The notes beneath the pieces are model-generated. The model saw only the letters and a program-made list of their open reading frames with translations. It searched no databases and was not told the origin of the DNA. Shown piece after piece: positions 26,504 through 35,532 of a stretch of DNA of 64,000 bases (its first letter is position 1; each line of letters opens with the position of its first letter). A program made the translations under genes and the position numbers. This DNA comes from Haloprofundus halobius (lineage in GTDB: Archaea; Halobacteriota; Halobacteria; Halobacteriales; Haloferacaceae): contig NZ_CP083666.1 of the NCBI RefSeq assembly GCF_020097835.1, positions 1,860,001 through 1,924,000 of the forward strand, read 5' to 3'.

Positions 26504-26971
26504 ATGACCGACGAGAGTGAGAACACGACGGACGAACGCGAATCGACTCGACGAACCGTGCTGAAAACCGGCGCGCTGTCCGCTGGAGGTCTCGCGCTCG
26601 GTCTGTCGGCGACTGGCGGCGCGGCCGCCCAGACCGACGGGAACCAACCCCGGTACAAGGCGCTGTTCCAGTCGAACAACTTCAACCCCGGCGCGAGACT
26701 TCGCATCGTCTCCGGGGTGGTGAACTACACGCCGCAGCAGACCGGATTTACCGCCTGGAGCGACTACAACACGCGGATCGCCACGTACCTCAACACGAAC
26801 GAGCGATTCCTCGTCTACCCCGCCGACGACGCGAACATCCAGCAGGGCCAGGTGTACCGCGTCCGCCCGAACTACTCGTTCCTGCCCGAGGACAACCAGG
26901 GGTTCGTCGACTCGCAACTGATTCCGGTGCAGGGCGACGGTGGCGGCGGCGGAAACGACAGTAATACCTGA
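26504..26971 (+). CDS. Tat-exported small protein, function unknown
   Basis: 155 residues from the ATG at 26504. The N terminus has a twin-arginine signal (STRRTVLKTGALSAGG, then a hydrophobic run ending in GGAAAQ), so export is by Tat. The mature protein of about 110 residues contains YKALFQSNNFNPGARLRIVS, TAWSDYNTRIATYLNTNERF and YRVRPNYSFLPEDNQG, which look beta-rich. A glycine/aspartate tail (GDGGGGGNDSNT) ends it. There are no cysteines or known domain. The frame upstream to 26213 is not used because the signal starts at this ATG. Confidence 0.7.
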   Translation: MTDESENTTDERESTRRTVLKTGALSAGGLALGLSATGGAAAQTDGNQPRYKALFQSNNFNPGARLRIVSGVVNYTPQQTGFTAWSDYNTRIATYLNTNERFLVYPADDANIQQGQVYRVRPNYSFLPEDNQGFVDSQLIPVQGDGGGGGNDSNT

Positions 26972-27044
26972 CTGCCGCTGCGGTCGGAACGCCATTCTTT
27001 CGGAAACCGAAGCGGCCAGCGCGGCGACTCCGTCAAGCCCCGAG

Positions 27045-27061
27045 CGTCCACCTAGTGGACG
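27045..27061. repeat. Perfect CGTCCAC-CTA-GTGGACG inverted repeat
   Basis: Seven-base arms with a 3-base loop in the 289-base gap between the Tat-protein gene (stop 26971) and the binding protein (start 27261). It is either a hairpin in the upstream transcript's 3' region or a regulatory site. The rest of the gap shows no gene. Confidence 0.45.
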
Positions 27062-27260
27062 ACGAGGCGAAGTTCGACTGCCTGCCGTCTCCGTAACTCA
27101 CGGCGGCTCGCTGGCCCGGAGTGGAACGGCCGACGCGGTCCGGACGAAACCTCGCGTTCGGTGGCATGCCATCGCAAGCAGAAACTCCAATCCGGTCATC
27201 GCCCAACCGAAACACGAACTCGTCTCACCTACCGGAGTACCGAGAGCGCATCTGTTACAC

Positions 27261-28838
27261 ATGGAGGGATACGATAGTTCGCTGCGGCGGCGCGAGCTGC
27301 TCGCGGGAATCGGCGCAGGAAGCGTTGTAACGCTGACTGGTTGTGCGGCCGACGCCCGGACGCCGTCGGGACCGAAGCTCCGGCTCGGAACGCTCTATCC
27401 GCCGGTCACTCTCGACCCGATCGAGGCGCAGGACGTGGGGTCGAGACAGGCGATAAACCGGGTTTTCGACGGATTGTACGCGTACGGAGCGGGGACCGAT
27501 ATCGTCCCGCGGATCGCGACCGGCCGGCCGACGGTCTCCAACGGTGGTCGACGGGTCGACGTGACGATCGACGAACGGGCGCGGTTTCAGAACGACAGAC
27601 CGGTCACGGCGGCAGACGTTCGGTACTCGTTCGAGGCGCCAGTCGAGGAGGAGGCGGCGACCGAGTGGATGGTCGACGTGCTGGAGTCGGTCGAGGTCGT
27701 CGACGAGAGGACGGTCAGCTTCCGGCTCCAGGAGCCGTATCCGGCGTTTCCGCACACGCTCACGCGACCGATCGTCCCAAAAGAGGCTCGTGAAGCCGAT
27801 AGGGAGTCGTTCGCGACGGATCCCGTCGGAAGCGGGCCGTTCGAGGTTCGGAAGTTCAGCGAGGAGAAGAAGGCGCAACTCGTGCGCTGGGACGAGTACT
27901 GGGGCGAGCCGAAGCCCGCGATTGCGCAACTCACGTTCGCGTACGTCGAATCGCCGCTCACGCTCATGATGGGGCTTCGGACCGGCCGCAACGACGCGAT
28001 CGAACCGGTCAGTCCGCAGGTGGCCGACGACATCCGCGACGTCACCGGCGCCTCGGTGAAGCGTCGAGCGGGCTACCGGACGTACTACCTCGGCTTCAAC
28101 CTGAATCAGGGTCCGACGACGAAACCGAAGGTTCGAGAGGCGATCAGCCACTGCGTCGACCTGGACGAAGTGGTCCGGGAGTTGGTCGAACCGTCCGGGA
28201 GTCGAGTGTACAGCCCGCTTCCGCGCCGGGTCGCGGAGAACTGGGAGATGCCGATAGAGCAGTGGAGACAGATTCCCGTCCGCAAGAACACAGACCGCGC
28301 GAGACAGCTGTTTCGAGAGGCGGGCGAGACCGGCGGTCAGTTCGAGATTCTGACCTCGAAGGACCCCCTCTGGAAGGAGTTCGGCGAAGCGCTCGCCGGC
28401 GGTCTTCGCAACGCCGGCCACGGCGCGCTCGTCACCTCGAAGCCGTGGAAGCGGTACCTCGAGACGTTCGTCTCGGGCTCCGAGAGCGACTACTCCATCT
28501 TCGTCGGCGGCATCGCCGGAACGCCCGACCCGGACTCGTTTCTGTACCCGACGTTCCACGAAAACATGATCGGACGCACGAACGGGGTGTTCTACACCGA
28601 CGACGAGGTGATGACCCGACTCACCGAGGCGCGGGAGACGACGGACCGTGCGCGACGACGGGGCCTCTACGAGACGGCGATCACGCGACTGCTCACCGAC
28701 CGGGTCTGTCTCCCGCTGTGCTCGTTCGAGAACAGTTTCGCCGTCTCCGACCGGGTCCGCGACTTCAGGGTCCACCCCATCACCGAGGTCAACCCCCAGT
28801 TGACGACCGACGACCGCGTCGTGGGGGTGGACTCGTGA
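27261..28838 (+). CDS. Extracellular solute-binding lipoprotein, family 5 (dipeptide/oligopeptide type)
   Basis: 525 residues from the ATG at 27261. The signal combines twin arginines (LRRRELLAGIGAGS) with a lipobox (LTGC), as in Tat-exported haloarchaeal lipoproteins. The mature protein follows the SBP_bac_5 pattern: LRLGTLYPPVTLDPIEAQDV, INRVFDGLYAY, TAADVRYSFE, TVSFRLQEPYPAFPHTLT, DPVGSGPFEVR, and REAISHCVDLDEVV. It would bind peptides, nickel or similar ligands outside the cell. ABC permease and ATPase genes are absent from the neighbourhood; instead the gene overlaps an APC-type permease by 4 bases (GTGA), implying translational coupling. Confidence 0.9.
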   Translation: MEGYDSSLRRRELLAGIGAGSVVTLTGCAADARTPSGPKLRLGTLYPPVTLDPIEAQDVGSRQAINRVFDGLYAYGAGTDIVPRIATGRPTVSNGGRRVDVTIDERARFQNDRPVTAADVRYSFEAPVEEEAATEWMVDVLESVEVVDERTVSFRLQEPYPAFPHTLTRPIVPKEAREADRESFATDPVGSGPFEVRKFSEEKKAQLVRWDEYWGEPKPAIAQLTFAYVESPLTLMMGLRTGRNDAIEPVSPQVADDIRDVTGASVKRRAGYRTYYLGFNLNQGPTTKPKVREAISHCVDLDEVVRELVEPSGSRVYSPLPRRVAENWEMPIEQWRQIPVRKNTDRARQLFREAGETGGQFEILTSKDPLWKEFGEALAGGLRNAGHGALVTSKPWKRYLETFVSGSESDYSIFVGGIAGTPDPDSFLYPTFHENMIGRTNGVFYTDDEVMTRLTEARETTDRARRRGLYETAITRLLTDRVCLPLCSFENSFAVSDRVRDFRVHPITEVNPQLTTDDRVVGVDS

Positions 28839-30148
28839 GCGACGACGGAGGCTTCGGCGTCGGAACGTCGACCGCACTCGGCGTCGGCGGAATCGTCGGT
28901 GGCGGAATCTACGCGGCGATCGGCATCGTCGTCGCCGCCGCCGGGGTGCTGACGTGGTTCGCCTACGCGCTCGCCACCGTCGTCGTGCTCTGTTGTGCCT
29001 ACTCGTACGTGAAGCTCAACGAACTGACCGAGGAGAGCGGCGGGTCGGTCTCGTTCATCGAGGAGTTGACCGGCCGGACGACGACTGCGGGCGTCGTCGG
29101 GTGGACGCTCGTCGTCGGATACATCGGAACGATGGCGATGTACGCGTACGCGTTCGGTGCGTACGGGCAGATGATGCTCGGCGTGGAGTACGTCTGGGGA
29201 CTCCCGCTTCGACAGTTCCTCTCGATAGGCGTCGTCGCCACGTTCGTCGGACTGAACCTCCTCGGTGCCTCCTCGACGGCCGCCGTGGAGCGGTATCTCG
29301 TGTTCGTGCAGGCGGGCGTCATCGCGGTCTTCGGCTTCGTCGCGCTCTGGTTCGGCTTCTCGAATCAGCTCCTCCAGAGCGGTCTCTCGGAGCTGACGCG
29401 ATCGATTACGAGTCTCGACATCAACCCGTTTCTCGCCGCCTCCGTCGGCTTCGTCTCGTTCGAGGGGTGGCAGTTGCTCTTCTACGACCAGGATCAGTTC
29501 GACGACCCCGACGAGACGCTCGCCAAGGGCGTGTTCCTCTCGATTCCCATCGCGGCGTTCATATACGTCCTCGTGGGGTTCGTCATCACGAGCCTCCTTC
29601 CCGAGGAAGTGGTCGCCGCCCAACCCGAGGCGGCGCTGCTGTACGGAGCCCTCGTCATCTCGAAGTGGCTCGCGCTCGCCGTCGGCATCGCCGGACTCAT
29701 CTCGACGGCGAGCGCCATCAACTCGACGATATTCAGCGAAGCCCTCTTCGCGAAGAACCTGATCTCCGAGGGTATCCTCCCCGACAGAATGGGCGACGCC
29801 GACGAGCAGGCCGCTCCGCCGCGGACCGTCCTCGTCATCGGCTTCTTCACGGCGGCGTTCACGAGTCTCGGCAGTCTCGAAGCCGTCGTCGAGTTCGCGT
29901 CGCTCTCGTTTATCGCGGTCTTCGGCGCGATGAGCGCGCTTACCTTGACGAACCGCGATAGGGGCGACATCAACGTCGTTCCCCCACTAGTCGGCACCGT
30001 CGGGTCGGTCGCCTTCTTCGCCATGCTCACGTGGTATCTCTACGCACAGCTTCCGTCGGTGTTCTGGCTCGTCGTCGGCATCGCGGTCGCGGTCTTCACC
30101 GTCGAGGCGCTGTACTTCGAGCGCGAGTCGCTCGAAGAAGGGATGTAG
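28835..30148 (+). CDS. APC superfamily amino acid/polyamine permease
   Basis: 437 residues from the GTG at 28835, which overlaps the stop of the binding-protein gene. The first membrane helix begins with GVGGIVGGGIYAAIG, the glycine-rich TM1 signature of APC transporters. About twelve helices follow, with SGGSVSFIEELTG between TM2 and TM3. There is a soluble loop LYDQDQFDDPDETLAKG-like (FYDQDQFDDPDETL) and a C-terminal helix pair. It is a secondary (ion- or proton-coupled) transporter of amino acids or amines across the cytoplasmic membrane. Coupling to an extracellular peptide-type binding protein is unusual for this family. Confidence 0.88.
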   Translation: MSDDGGFGVGTSTALGVGGIVGGGIYAAIGIVVAAAGVLTWFAYALATVVVLCCAYSYVKLNELTEESGGSVSFIEELTGRTTTAGVVGWTLVVGYIGTMAMYAYAFGAYGQMMLGVEYVWGLPLRQFLSIGVVATFVGLNLLGASSTAAVERYLVFVQAGVIAVFGFVALWFGFSNQLLQSGLSELTRSITSLDINPFLAASVGFVSFEGWQLLFYDQDQFDDPDETLAKGVFLSIPIAAFIYVLVGFVITSLLPEEVVAAQPEAALLYGALVISKWLALAVGIAGLISTASAINSTIFSEALFAKNLISEGILPDRMGDADEQAAPPRTVLVIGFFTAAFTSLGSLEAVVEFASLSFIAVFGAMSALTLTNRDRGDINVVPPLVGTVGSVAFFAMLTWYLYAQLPSVFWLVVGIAVAVFTVEALYFERESLEEGM

Positions 30149-30323
30149 GGCGTCTACCCGAGACCTCGCCTGATTCGTGTGTCGGTCGTGGTGGGGCGGG
30201 CGCTCGGTCTCTCCCTCCCGTTTCGAGGACCGTGGCCGGTCGCGAAGGTCCAGTCACGGCCGCCGATTGAGGTTCGACTAGCGGTGTCTCGACTCCTGTC
30301 GGTCGGCGACGTTCGCAGAAAGT

Positions 30324-30337
30324 AGTCCCGGACGGAT
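30324..30337 (+). other. Candidate att site: near copy of the tRNA-Gln 3' end
   Basis: AGTCCCGGACGGAT matches 13 of 14 bases of AGTCCCGGGCGGAT, the 3' end of the tRNA-Gln gene as read on the plus strand at 35461-35474. The orientation is the same as at the tRNA, as expected for the displaced fragment left by integration. Everything between the two copies is the arsenic/kinase island. Confidence 0.5.
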
Positions 30338-30410
30338 CTCCATCGAAGTCCCCAGAGAAATGCAGTACACCGATTCGAAGCCCAAAACAGGAGAGTAGAC
30401 TATCGACGGA

Positions 30411-30420
30411 ATGCTTATTT
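30411..30420 (+). promoter_or_regulatory. TATA-like box of arsR
   Basis: ATGCTTATTT lies 25-34 bases before the GTG of arsR. ArsR probably represses its own gene here, but no clear operator palindrome is visible around it. Confidence 0.45.
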
Positions 30421-30444
30421 GAGAGACTGGACAACTATTCGTCA

Positions 30445-30840
30445 GTGCCTGAAACAACGACGGACGAGCGGCTTCGTCGGTATCTGCGGGACGAACTGGG
30501 CGAGTGTCGAAGTGAGGACCTCCAACAACGACTCAGTGAACTCGACGACCTCGAAGCACTGATCGATGAGGAGACGATCTCGAGTGACGTTCGGACGCTA
30601 TCGGCGCTCGGTAACGAGACGCGATATCGACTCGTTCGAATGCTCGTCGAGGCGGACAGCGAGCTCTGTGTCTGCGAAATCACGCCGCTGATGGACGTTA
30701 GCGATAGCGCCGTGAGTCACGCGTTCTCCACGCTAGTAGACGCTGGACTCGTCCGCAAACGAAAGGACGGTCGCTGGCGAAAGTACCGGGCGACGACGAG
30801 AGCGAACGCGCTTCTCGCCGTTCTCGACGGAACACGGTAA
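30445..30840 (+). CDS. arsR: ArsR/SmtB-family arsenic-responsive repressor
   Basis: 131 residues from the GTG at 30445. It contains SALGNETRYRLVRMLVEAD, the metal-binding segment ELCVCEITPLMDVSDSAVSHAFSTL (Cys pair CVC, then the recognition helix), and GLVRKRKDGRWRKYRAT for the wing. This is the ArsR/SmtB winged-helix layout with the alpha3 CxC-type arsenite site. It is expected to repress ars genes and to release DNA on binding As(III). An N-terminal helical extension of about 40 residues rich in Arg, Asp and Leu precedes the domain, longer than typical. It is the first gene of the arsenic island. Confidence 0.9.
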   Translation: MPETTTDERLRRYLRDELGECRSEDLQQRLSELDDLEALIDEETISSDVRTLSALGNETRYRLVRMLVEADSELCVCEITPLMDVSDSAVSHAFSTLVDAGLVRKRKDGRWRKYRATTRANALLAVLDGTR

Positions 30841-31013
30841 TCTACTCTTCGTCTGCGTTACCCGCATTGAATTCACCGACTGCTCAACTACCACGAGTCA
30901 CGGATCGGAACCGTCAGTAACTGGCTAATTCCACCTCCCGATACCTCTGTCGAGGTGATCTTCCAGCCGTCGAGTGAAAGGAGCGTCCTCCCACTAACGG
31001 GTGAACCGAAGAA

Positions 31014-31040
31014 ATTATTTAAACATTTGTTCAACTGTTT
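31014..31040 (+). promoter_or_regulatory. AT-rich promoter/operator-like element upstream of arsD remnant
   Basis: An ATTATTTAA box (31014-31022) overlaps AAACA and TGTTT arms (31021-31025 and 31036-31040), an imperfect 20-base inverted repeat. The 316 bases between arsR and the arsD remnant contain no intact gene; this element is the only structure I see. It may be the original promoter of the arsD operon, controlled by ArsR. Confidence 0.4.
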
Positions 31041-31156
31041 GTCTGTGAGTGTCGAAGCGGATCGGGAAGACAGCGAACGAAGCCGAACAGAGTCGATCTC
31101 CGTTCGCTGCGTTATCGTTGTCTCGAGAACGCTTCAAACGCTCAAAATCATCAACT

Positions 31157-31294
31157 ATGGTCGAGATAACCGTCTTCGAAGACGCGATGTGTTGTTCCAC
31201 CGGCGTCTGCGGACCGGACCCGGACAAAGAACTCGTCGCGTTCACGCACGCAGTCGATAGTCTTATTTTAGTACTTCCTCAAGTATCTGTATGA
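31157..31294 (+). pseudogene. arsD: arsD remnant, arsenite metallochaperone truncated after its cysteine motif
   Basis: The ATG-started frame reads VEITVFEDAMCCSTGVCGPD then ELVAFTHAVD, the hallmark N terminus of ArsD with the vicinal Cys12-Cys13 pair and Cys18 that bind As(III). Normal ArsD has about 100-120 residues. Here the reading stops at 45 residues, and the last eleven (SLILVLPQVSV) are unlike the family. The arsC promoter and start immediately follow, so the C-terminal two thirds are deleted. In complete operons ArsD hands arsenite to the ArsA ATPase, which is also absent. A residual metal-binding peptide is conceivable. Confidence 0.7.
31261..31270 (+). promoter_or_regulatory. TATA-like box of arsC
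   Basis: TCTTATTTTA lies 21-30 bases before the ATG of arsC, inside the diverged end of the arsD remnant. It gives arsC its own, probably leaderless, transcript. Confidence 0.5.
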
Positions 31295-31713
31295 GCGACG
31301 ATGTCGTGACGTTCGGATTCGTTTGTGTCCAGAACGCCGGTCGAAGTCAGATGTCCGCTGCGTTTGCAGAGCGGGAACGGCAACGACGCGGCCTCGAAGA
31401 TCGCGTCGAGATCGTCACGGGTGGCACGATGCCAGCCGACGAGGTTCACCCCGAAGTCGTCGAAGCGATGCGAGAACTGGATATCGACCTGTCGGACCGC
31501 GTACCGCGGGAGGTCAGCGACGAGCAACTCAACGCGTGCGACGTCGTCGCGACGATGGGCTGTTCGACGCTCGAACTCGACGCCAACGTCGAAGTTCGAG
31601 ACTGGGACCTAGACGACCCCCACGGGCAGGATATCGAACGCGTCCGCGAGATTCGCGACGAGATCGAGCGGCGGGTGGTCTCCCTTTTCGACGAACAGTT
31701 CACCGATCAGTAG
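31291..31713 (+). CDS. arsC: Arsenate reductase, low-molecular-weight phosphatase type
   Basis: 140 residues. The phosphatase loop is CVQNAGRSQ (Cys12-x5-Arg18), at the N terminus as in the thioredoxin-linked LMW-PTP family. The distal DDPHGQD supplies the general acid aspartate (Asp-Pro). GGTMPADEVHPEVVEAMRE and VATMGCSTLELD fit the family; the second and third cysteines (around ACDVV and MGCS) could serve in the disulfide cascade. It reduces arsenate to arsenite for export by the adjacent transporter. It converges on the exporter gene with 52 bases between stops. Confidence 0.9.
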   Translation: MSDDVVTFGFVCVQNAGRSQMSAAFAERERQRRGLEDRVEIVTGGTMPADEVHPEVVEAMRELDIDLSDRVPREVSDEQLNACDVVATMGCSTLELDANVEVRDWDLDDPHGQDIERVREIRDEIERRVVSLFDEQFTDQ

Positions 31714-31765
31714 CTGGTGAGTCGCCGCTCTATGCATCCACCGACCGGGTGAAGAGCGCGAACGT

Positions 31766-32755
31766 CTACGACTCGCTGAGAATCGACGTCGACGGACCGT
31801 TCGGAAGGAGCCGGCCGGGAACCACCCTCGTCAGAACGACCATTCCCGTGAGTTCGACCAGCGTCTGGGTCACGACGACTGCCGGTGCGAGCGCGTACCC
31901 CGACGGTAACGCAAGTGCCAGCGGAAGGATGACGAGCGAGTTCCGCGTTACCGACGTGAACACGAGCGCACGACTCTCGCCGATGTCCATCTGGAAGAGA
32001 CCCGCCGCGAGCCGACCGAGCAGTGGCATCACGATCAAGAACGCGACGTACACCGGGACGACAACCGCAATCTGGCCGATCGAGTCCTGCACGCGAGGAA
32101 GCTGAGATGCGATTACCACGAACAGCGTCGCACCCATCATCGGAACCGGTAACCAGCCCATAGCGCCCTCCCAGCGGTCGCCCGTCTCGGAGCGGTCGGC
32201 CCAGAACTCCGTGAGCCACGCGAGCGTCAGCGGAAGCGCGATAATCAGGACGAACGCCTCGATGAACGGTCCCGCCTCGACGAACTCCGCCACTTGCTGA
32301 CCCATGAGCAGCCACAGGTACGCCGGGAGCAACAGCAGTTGGACGAGCATCAGTACCGGCGTCGCGGCGGTGATCTGCTCGGAGTCTCCCCCCGCGAGTT
32401 CCGTGAACGTGATGACGTAGTCGATACAGGGCGTCAGCAGCACCATGAACGCACCCACGAGAATCACCGGATCCTGCGGCAGAAACCGAGTGAGACCGAA
32501 GACGACGACCGGGACGACGAGGAAGTTCATTCCGAGGGCTGCCGCCATGAACCGCCCATTCGTGAACGCGTGGCGGAGCCTGGTGAACGGAATTTCGAGG
32601 AACGTCACGTACAACAGCACCGCCAAGACGGGATTGATGAGCGGTTCGAAAAGCGAGCTCACGCTCGGTTTCCCGAGACCAGCGACGATTGCGAGTGTGA
32701 CCGCGACTCCGTAGACTACGACTTGATTCTGCTGGAGTCGGTCCTTCGTACCCAT
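31766..32755 (-). CDS. acr3: ACR3-type arsenite exporter
   Basis: 329 residues from the ATG at 32755; a TTTATTCTT box 22-30 bases upstream supports this start over the frame reaching 32854. About ten membrane helices of the bile acid/arsenite (BART) superfamily are visible. LVVPVVVFGL, the conserved cysteine region LLTPCIDYVITFTELAGGD, and SVTRNSLVILPLALALP match the ACR3 pattern (family Cys in TM4). It extrudes arsenite from the cytosol using membrane potential. It works with ArsC, which generates arsenite from arsenate. It is transcribed toward arsC rather than in the usual single operon. Confidence 0.85.
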   Translation of the reverse strand: MGTKDRLQQNQVVVYGVAVTLAIVAGLGKPSVSSLFEPLINPVLAVLLYVTFLEIPFTRLRHAFTNGRFMAAALGMNFLVVPVVVFGLTRFLPQDPVILVGAFMVLLTPCIDYVITFTELAGGDSEQITAATPVLMLVQLLLLPAYLWLLMGQQVAEFVEAGPFIEAFVLIIALPLTLAWLTEFWADRSETGDRWEGAMGWLPVPMMGATLFVVIASQLPRVQDSIGQIAVVVPVYVAFLIVMPLLGRLAAGLFQMDIGESRALVFTSVTRNSLVILPLALALPSGYALAPAVVVTQTLVELTGMVVLTRVVPGRLLPNGPSTSILSES

Positions 32756-32776
32756 CTGGACGTTGTTTCGAGAGCG

Positions 32777-32785
32777 AAGAATAAA
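32777..32785 (-). promoter_or_regulatory. TATA-like box of acr3
   Basis: TTTATTCTT on the minus strand, 22-30 bases before the ATG at 32755; leaderless spacing. Confidence 0.5.
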
Positions 32786-32896
32786 CCGCCGTTGCTGTGG
32801 CCCGACGCGATCACCCGGCGTTTGGAACTCCGTCGACAATCTCGAGGTCGACACGCACCCAAATATCGCTACAGACGATAGTGACCTCTCTACCGA

Positions 32897-35230
32897 TCAG
32901 TTCGTTGGTTGTTTCGAAAGCGTAAAGGAGAATGTCGAACCCTCCCCGGGGGTAGAATCGACCCAAATCTTACCAGCGTGATTCTCAACGATCTCCTGAC
33001 ACAGCGAGAGACCGATTCCGGTTCCGGGAGACTCGTCGTCGCGGTGAAGTCGCTTGAAGACCTCGAAAATCCGCTCGGTGCTGTCCGGGTCGATACCAAT
33101 GCCGTTATCGGTGACCGAGAACTGCCAGTGATCGGTCCGTTCTTCGGCGGTGATTTCGACAGACGGGGGATCGGAGTCGTTGTACTTGATGGCGTTCGAG
33201 ATGAGATTGTTGAACAGCTGATCGAGTTGCTTCCTATCCCCCACCACCGTCGGGAGTGAGTGGGTCACGATCTCTGCGCCGCTTTCTTCGATCTGCATCC
33301 GAAGATCGGCCGTGACCCGTTCGATGACCGCGTCTCCCTCGACCGGTTCGAACTCCCCGTCGGCCTGTTCGATCCGCGAAAACGCGAGGAGATCGTCGAC
33401 CATCAACCGCATGCGATCGGCCCCGTCAACCGCGAAGTCGATGTAGTCTTTCGCGTCCTCATCGAGTTCATCTCTGTATCTGTTCTCGAGCAGTTGCAGG
33501 TAGCTGGAGATCATCCGCAACGGTTCCTGAAGATCGTGGGAGGCAGCGTAGGCGAACTGTTGTAGCCGGTTGTTCGACTGTTGAAGCTGGTAGATCGTCC
33601 TCTCGAGTTCCGCTTCACGGGCGACCTGTTCGGTGATATCGCGGGTGAGCGCAACGTGAGCACTCGTACCGTCGGGACGACGAAGCGGTGCTGCGTGCGT
33701 TTCCATGTGGCGACGTGTACCATCCAGCCCGACGATGTCGAACTCCAAGGTCCCGTGTTCACCCCGACAGATCTCCTCGTTGAACTCGCGAAACTTCTCA
33801 CGGTGTTCGGGGGCGATCAGGTTATAGACGCATTCTCCGGTCACGTCCGATTCCGAATCGGCTTCCACCATCTCCAGTCCGGCGGGATTCATCTGGAGAA
33901 GGGTACCGTCGGGAGCGACGGTCTTGATACATTCGGGCGTGGTTTCGACGAGCGCACTCAGATGCTCGGTGCGCTCGTGTAACTCCTGCTCTCGCAGTCG
34001 GCGTTCGAGTTCGTACTTCACCCACTGACCCATCGACTCGATAAACGCGTGTTCGTCGTCCGAGAATCCGTGCTCTCTCGGTTCGGAGGTGACGAAGAAG
34101 AACGTCCGATCGGCATCGCCGGACAGCTCGACGTAGGTCCCCAGATACGCCCGGATACCGAACTCCTGATAGACGGTGATATCGTCGTATCCCTCCCCGT
34201 GAGGGTCCGAGACGCTCCCGGCGGCTTTGATTTCTGTGGCGGCAGTACAGTAGGTCTGCGACAACGGAAGCTCGACGCCGGGCTCGAAGTGTTCGTGCTC
34301 ATCGCTGATCAACTCGACCTCGAACCAGTCGTCCTCCGTATCGACTCGGGCCAGAGCCCCAAGTTCGAGATCGAACCGATCGCAGCCCAACTCGAACAAG
34401 GCCTGGAGTTTCTCCTCGAACGTCTGATCCGAACTGGCGATAACCTCGTTTAGCCTGTTTGCGCGCCGCTGGCGCCCCTCTAGTTCCGCTTTCGCGTCGG
34501 TCTGCTCACGGAGCGTTCCCAACATCCGCTCGACCTCGCGAGCGGGCCGTTCCGGACCGAGGAACTCCGAAGGTGGCGAGTAGTAGGAGTTGTGGCTCAC
34601 CCTGTTGCCGTGAATCAGGTGAGGGTGGGTGTTGATGACGTCGCGGATGACTTCCGGCTGGAACCGGTTTCGGTTGTACTGGCAAAGCGCCATCCCGTTC
34701 ACGTCCCGAAATAGGTAATTGGCTTTACTCTCGCACTTTAAGAGGTCGTCGACGGGGGCGTCATCGTCGAGGATAAACGTCATCTCGCCGGTCACTCGGA
34801 GTGCTTCGTACTCCTCAGCGGCTTCAGTAATGGCGTCGTCAAGGAAGGCGAGTGTATCTTCCGGGTCGAACGATCCGTTTCGAAGATAAGTCTCCTGCTC
34901 GTCGTGAATCGACAACGCTCCTGATTCGAGGGCGTCGTCAACGTCAATACCCCGGGACTGCATCGCCTCTACGACCGTTTCCCGGGAGTTTTCGTTCGTG
35001 ATGTAGACGCATCGCTCGCCTCGTTCGAGGCCCTGACGGATGTAGGGGACGACTGCCGCGAACTGTTCGTCGCGGTTCTCGTAGATGAGAGCAAGATGGT
35101 CGTTAGTATGTTCGTGGTCGCTGGGGGGCTCGACGGGCCCGGTGAACGCTAGGCTTTGACGCAACGCTTTGAGGCCGTGCTGAGCATCCGACACGGTGCG
35201 TTGAGTTCCCTCTTCAACCGACTTATTCAT
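32897..35230 (-). CDS. MEDS-GAF-PAS sensor histidine kinase
   Basis: 777 residues, soluble. Order: MEDS sensory domain about 40-210 (HLALIYENRDEQFAAVVPYI, VTGEMTFIL, CQYNRNRFQPEVI); a linker coiled coil; GAF-like domain about 250-420; PAS domain about 430-545 (LVETTPECIKTVAPDGTLLQ, then ALTRDITEQVAREAEL); HisKA with phosphoacceptor His in FAYAASHDLQEPLRM; HATPase with NLISNAIKYN, VTDNGIGIDP and GTGIGLSLC. It autophosphorylates on His in response to an unknown small-molecule or redox cue. No receiver or output protein is adjacent, as with many orphan haloarchaeal kinases. It lies inside the tRNA-bounded island. Its AT-richer codons differ from the neighbouring core genes. Confidence 0.92.
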   Translation of the reverse strand: MNKSVEEGTQRTVSDAQHGLKALRQSLAFTGPVEPPSDHEHTNDHLALIYENRDEQFAAVVPYIRQGLERGERCVYITNENSRETVVEAMQSRGIDVDDALESGALSIHDEQETYLRNGSFDPEDTLAFLDDAITEAAEEYEALRVTGEMTFILDDDAPVDDLLKCESKANYLFRDVNGMALCQYNRNRFQPEVIRDVINTHPHLIHGNRVSHNSYYSPPSEFLGPERPAREVERMLGTLREQTDAKAELEGRQRRANRLNEVIASSDQTFEEKLQALFELGCDRFDLELGALARVDTEDDWFEVELISDEHEHFEPGVELPLSQTYCTAATEIKAAGSVSDPHGEGYDDITVYQEFGIRAYLGTYVELSGDADRTFFFVTSEPREHGFSDDEHAFIESMGQWVKYELERRLREQELHERTEHLSALVETTPECIKTVAPDGTLLQMNPAGLEMVEADSESDVTGECVYNLIAPEHREKFREFNEEICRGEHGTLEFDIVGLDGTRRHMETHAAPLRRPDGTSAHVALTRDITEQVAREAELERTIYQLQQSNNRLQQFAYAASHDLQEPLRMISSYLQLLENRYRDELDEDAKDYIDFAVDGADRMRLMVDDLLAFSRIEQADGEFEPVEGDAVIERVTADLRMQIEESGAEIVTHSLPTVVGDRKQLDQLFNNLISNAIKYNDSDPPSVEITAEERTDHWQFSVTDNGIGIDPDSTERIFEVFKRLHRDDESPGTGIGLSLCQEIVENHAGKIWVDSTPGEGSTFSFTLSKQPTN

Positions 35231-35460
35231 TGGCCAGGTTATCTGCCCAGTACGGTTAAAAGTAGTGCTACAACGCTACAGGGAGGAGTTACCAGATACT
35301 GCCTCGTTGGTCTGTTCCCACGTGGTGAGGAAGGATGAGACTGTCTCTGAGAATTTCGTTTTAGATGTACCGTTTTAACTGTAGAGGTAGGGCTGTGACG
35401 ATGGCTCGAGGGATGACGCAAGGGTTACCGGTACAGAAGGACTCGCACCGATTTGGAGAT

Positions 35461-35532
35461 AGTCCCGGGCGGATTCGAACCGCCGTCAATGGCTCCAAAG
35501 GCCATTATGATTGGCCACTACACCACGGGACT
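35461..35532 (-). tRNA. tRNA-Gln (anticodon UUG)
   Basis: Minus-strand cloverleaf. Acceptor AGTCCCG pairs with CGGGACT. The anticodon stem ATGGC/GCCAT encloses loop CTTTGGA with anticodon TTG. The T arm is GGCGG-TTCGAAT-CCGCC. CCA is not encoded. It reads CAA (and possibly CAG) codons. Its 3' end faces the arsenic/kinase island and is near-duplicated at 30324, marking it as an integration target. Confidence 0.93.

Follow-up and report, generated by a model that had tools for sequence, protein, structure and literature searches.

Probable remnant of a tyrosine-integrase element at tRNA-Gln with arsenic and sensor kinase genes between its old ends in Haloprofundus halobius

The window, a 64,000-nucleotide stretch of the Haloprofundus halobius chromosome (G000:C1:1860001-1924000), very probably carries a decayed tyrosine-integrase element at tRNA-Gln(TTG), whose integrase has since been lost and between whose old ends ars and kinase genes are found. 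The locus displays a paired core, an ancestral flank, an attR arm, a missing integrase and low GC, and its core is present in five integrase-bearing elements. Relevant features are listed below; the names attL and attR follow an orientation convention of this analysis.

27060..28838, plus strand: SBP_bac_5 solute-binding protein, accessory, just outside the relic (Pfam 3.4e-62)
28838..30148, plus strand: APC-family amino-acid permease, accessory, just outside the relic (Pfam AA_permease_2 1e-29)
30196..30322, plus strand: putative decayed ancestral tRNA-Gln flank, left of the relic (likeness to G004 attL flank)
30323..30337, plus strand: distal att relic, called attL, the displaced tRNA-Gln 3' end (14/15 identity)
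30445..30840, plus strand: arsR-type repressor (Pfam HTH_5 4.6e-11)
31157..31294, plus strand: truncated arsD, family residues 1-36 only (Pfam ArsD 9.7e-13, model 1-36 of 123)
31291..31713, plus strand: arsC, arsenate reductase of low-MW phosphatase type (Pfam LMWPc 9.1e-29)
31766..32755, minus strand: ACR3-type arsenite efflux permease, SBF/ACR3 (Pfam SBF 2.1e-15)
32897..35230, minus strand: MEDS-PAS-HisKA-HATPase sensor kinase (Pfam MEDS 6.4e-50, HATPase_c 1.4e-30)
35436..35459, plus strand: remnant of the element's attR-side arm, GGACTCGCACCGATTTGGAGA (likeness to other attR arms)
35460-35474: tRNA-side att core, called attR, the tRNA-Gln 3' end, TAGTCCCGGGCGGAT, exact in five integrase-bearing elements at tRNA-Gln
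35460..35532, minus strand: tRNA-Gln(TTG), the integration target (ARAGORN)

The two cores, TAGTCCCGGACGGAT at 30323-30337 and TAGTCCCGGGCGGAT at 35460-35474, are identical in 14 of 15 positions. Their sole mismatch lies at 30332, where the relic has A for G and is spelled TAGTCCCGG[A]CGGAT. A preliminary description had pointed to 14 bases that match the 3' end of tRNA-Gln in all but one position and are oriented like a displaced tRNA end; both claims hold for 30323-30337, and the repeat proved to be one base longer. The orientation is right since an element entering the tRNA 3' end occupies the low-coordinate side, which leaves the displaced end on the same strand at the far border. With the polymorphic base left free and at most one further mismatch, only these two cores were retrieved from both strands of the 3,947,132-base genome. 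In dinucleotide shuffles of 26965-35459 (8.5 kb), one of 3000 contained a plus-strand copy that had no more than one mismatch. Looser counting is weak alone, as four 14-mers with two mismatches allowed were found in the window against 1.4 expected. The strength of the repeat thus lies in the near-exact match taken together with its position and strand and with comparative evidence. We regard 30323-30337 as a genuine attachment-site relic.

Five integrase-bearing elements of 20-30 kb were detected at tRNA-Gln, one in the congener G004 and four in other genera (G022, G125, G199 and G088). All of them have the exact core TAGTCCCGGGCGGAT, with the integrase located beside its distal copy. The longest repeat common to the five is 15 nt, and the window repeat stops at the same base. 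In G022 (Ca. Halobonum tyrrellensis G22), the core is situated at C29:84916, a 466-aa integrase starts at 84976 and tRNA-Gln lies at 105288; genes of this element include a primase-helicase-like Prim-Pol/D5_N protein and the type I restriction methylase HsdM. Relatives of the G022 integrase were found in G125, G199 and G088, on the correct side and 25-26 kb from tRNA-Gln, when 195 genomes of the order were searched. A home-made profile detected no integrase within 10 kb of tRNA-Gln in the other genera compared, and whole-genome searches placed the integrases 20-30 kb away. Matches of the G022 integrase to integrases of archaeal viruses were in the range of 24-33%, and no viral contig matched the exact core with its 12-nt flank. 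We also observed an arsC about 140 bp outside the G022 attL (C29 83900-84800, L230), beside an apparent C-terminal end of an ACR3 gene. With this arsC, ars genes occur at tRNA-Gln in three genomes.

Sequences adjoining both window cores resemble those of these elements. To the left of the relic, 32 nt are identical with the G004 attL flank in 20 of 32 ungapped positions, and only one of 127,938 window positions is that good. The tRNA-Gln flank of Halogeometricum limi (H. limi) reaches 19/32, a value attained at five window positions. For a longer stretch, 30196-30337, alignment with the G004 intergenic unit scores 54 (shuffled 95th percentile 44, maximum 59), a likeness that is suggestive rather than strong. 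On the tRNA side, GGACTCGCACCGATTTGGAGA is identical in 15-16 of 24 positions with the sequence at the same place in G002, G004 and G125, and its GGATT motif is also present at attR of G022, G199 and G088. The empty site of G001 has no such arm (6/24). An inner attL arm of the AATCC type is missing beside the window relic. No PF00589 match occurs anywhere in the 64-kb window, as the preliminary description had supposed of an integrase. Because none lies inside the interval, the locus is filed as a remnant rather than as an element.

The same locus was compared in five genomes of the genus, G000 and its congeners G001-G004. In G001 the site is empty, with 235 bp between homologues of window positions 26964 and 35458, followed by tRNA-Gln. 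In G003 (H. marisrubri SB9), 1.9 kb of other genes occupy the corresponding place. G004 harbours a 30.2-kb element, whose core is found at C1:547551 just past the conserved left neighbour, with the integrase adjoining and tRNA-Gln at 577790. Its cargo includes a P-type ATPase and a glycosyl hydrolase of family 15, among others. The G004 tyrosine integrase (C1:547607-549117, L223) is split into a 374-aa frame with the catalytic part and a 141-aa frame with the N-terminal part, so this element may also be trapped. From these occupied and empty sites it follows that the variable block of the window spans 26.97-35.46 kb and is larger than first stated.

The enlarged block includes an SBP_bac_5 gene and an APC permease gene, which had been taken for core, an impression that the pair's core-like GC explains. 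In none of the four congeners is the SBP_bac_5 gene present at this locus, and none has a close relative of the permease. In G086, a member of another family (L225), a permease of 87% identity stands beside the same SBP. A core flank is thereby ruled out, and the genes bordering the repeat on the left are accessory: the pair is another insertion, outside the relic. The predicted empty site, with the APC permease followed directly by tRNA-Gln, was not seen in the four congeners, nor was an ancestral SBP-APC-tRNA arrangement. Since the pair is missing in G001 too, there is no empty relative for exactly 30323-35460. In H. limi, tRNA-Gln directly adjoins an APC permease gene of 43% identity, and no SBP accompanies it. 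As for the pairing itself, a dipeptide-type SBP_bac_5 protein is here combined with an APC permease, not with an ABC transporter, and the combination is kept in the distant family of G086.

Between the ends, the trio of an ars operon, that is repressor, reductase and efflux pump, is present and intact by Pfam (HTH_5, LMWPc, SBF). No arsA reading frame lies between arsD and arsC, and an intact arsD-arsA pair is lacking; the ArsD match in G003 is longer than that of the window (model 1-108). The window arsC is 91% identical in G002 and has 84% DNA identity to a sequence on G004 contig C2. Two more ACR3 genes, of 76-79% DNA identity, are located elsewhere in the same genome. Beside its MEDS kinase, G002 has RR-HK-RR genes that are missing in the window. 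Since G002 keeps these response-regulator and kinase genes, the window kinase has probably become an orphan through loss of its neighbours. GC of the 5.1-kb interval is 58.2% against 64.5% for the window and below every other 5137-bp window tested (mean 64.3%), which bears out the earlier remark that the interval is AT-richer.

In G002, an arsC-ACR3-kinase block 91% identical to that of the window is situated at the same tRNA. It lies to the left of the G002 relic, TAGTTCCAGGCGGAT (L112:12986), and of an ancestral-type flank; the window block lies to the right of its relic. Separately, a TnpB (IS605 OrfB) gene was noted between the att relic and tRNA-Gln in G002 (L112:14045-15346). Third-position identity between G000 and G002 is 0.81-0.85 in the block and 0.72-0.84 in core genes. 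As the values are alike, the block is old in both species, and a recent strain-specific gain is unsupported.

The history that we propose begins with a tyrosine-integrase element, the 15-bp attP core of which would have recombined with the 3' end of tRNA-Gln(TTG). The tRNA would have received a new 3' end from the element, and the old end would have been displaced to the opposite border of the element, at present 30323-30337. Deletion would then have removed the integrase and the inner attL arm, and the displaced core would have gained one mutation; with these changes, the att ends are probably dead. The tRNA-Gln site is a hotspot where several insertions have occurred. The relic could be older than the element of the present attR arm, since many relatives have several tandem copies of the tRNA end. 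We infer from the sequence the order of these events, the loss of mobility and an arrival of the ars genes either with the element or by recombination into its remains. In the original interpretation, the integration at tRNA-Gln, the displaced end and the lost integrase are upheld by the five elements and the G004 attL flank; its assumption that everything outside the repeat is core is not, SBP and APC being accessory.

Could the 15-mer at 30323 be accidental and the island have formed otherwise? In its favour, 14-mers with up to two mismatches are not scarce in the window. Nevertheless, the relic is the sole copy of its quality in the genome, shuffling hardly ever reproduces it, the flank outside it matches G004 attL independently, and the length of the match is exactly the core of the five elements. 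A chance match, already called unlikely, is therefore rejected as a most improbable explanation. Another possibility is local duplication rather than integration, the relic being one of the tandem tRNA-Gln 3'-end units of about 100 bp that are found in many Haloferacaceae. About 15 examined tRNA-Gln loci have two or three such copies 70-110 bp apart (among them L034, L009, L033, L042, L044, L053 and L086, and also G190 and G169), each with a hairpin (GCGGATTCGA...TCGAATCCGC) and a stretch like 'gctcacttcgttcgcagaa' behind it. In the window, however, 5.1 kb separates the two copies, their likeness ends precisely where the 15-nt integrase core ends, and the tRNA is joined by the attR arm of integrase elements; we consider local duplication improbable. 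The tandem units may be scars that repeated insertions have left.

How the ars genes came is a different matter. The relic may be genuine and the ars-kinase block may have come separately, through homologous or illegitimate recombination within a locus where tRNA-end repeats abound, a reading to which we give an even chance and which is compatible with integration at the tRNA, differing from it only in the origin of these genes. It would account for the G002 block, which is located outside the att-bounded interval, across the relic and the ancestral-type flank, and has diverged like core genes; for the resemblance of the window arsR-arsC to a module on G004 contig C2 (84-85%); and for arsD being cut at residue 36 right before arsC, as a recombination or deletion joint. 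The common tandem units at the locus point the same way. On the contrary, the window block sits between two old ends, GC falls at the relic, and the P-type ATPase of G004 indicates that metal-transport cargo is possible at this site. Since the G002 block is outside its relic, a role as cargo of this particular integration is disfavoured, and the likelihood that the ars genes arrived with the element whose ends bound them is about evenly balanced. The opposite positions in G000 and G002 would come either from a single arrival with later rearrangement of the locus or from two separate settlements of the block. It is a rather doubtful extension that tRNA-Gln is a long-lived recombination site, where insertions leave units of about 100 bp made of tRNA end and hairpin, and blocks such as arsC-ACR3-kinase shift between the intervals. 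If true, shifting of cargo between array intervals would explain why the block lies to the left of the relic in one species and to the right of it in the other.

The integration reading agrees with what is known of archaeal elements. The haloarchaeal SNJ2 att core is short (13-14 bp), archaeal att cores range down to 8-14 bp, integrase loss after integration is documented, and mutation of att sites is believed to lock elements in place (PMC8371274). Like the SNJ2-like and XerC-like integrase elements of haloarchaea (PMC8371274), which include known cases of integrase loss, the window element would have targeted a tRNA 3' end, restored an uninterrupted tRNA and used a very short core (15 bp against 13-14 bp in SNJ2). 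It differs by its tRNA-Gln target, lost integrase and arsenic genes, and the related integrases are candidate members of the SNJ2 family. The 20.4-kb G022 element shares with it tRNA-Gln, the 15-nt core and a similar tRNA-side arm, but has a one-frame integrase, a primase-helicase-like gene and a type I restriction methylase, and no ars genes inside. The G004 element shares the tRNA, core, left flank and conserved neighbour genes, but is larger, carries other cargo and has its integrase present, though split. Compared with haloarchaeal ars clusters (arsR, arsC, ACR3, arsD/arsA), the window has arsR, arsC and ACR3 intact by Pfam, but its arsD is cut to the first 36 residues, arsA is lacking and a sensor kinase is attached. 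Literature searches found no paper naming tRNA-Gln integration in haloarchaea and none combining Halobonum tyrrellensis with an integrase. Against this published background, the locus adds a further, well supported example of a known phenomenon, the decayed tRNA-integrated element.

Taken across several haloarchaeal families, tRNA-Gln is a recurrent landing site with a precisely bounded 15-nt core, and a single near-perfect 15-mer is enough to identify its scar once the integrase is lost. Since G002 has its block beyond the relic and outside the att-bounded interval, the ars block need not have come on the element that bounds it. The locus is thus a concrete case in which genes between two att ends need not be the element's own cargo.
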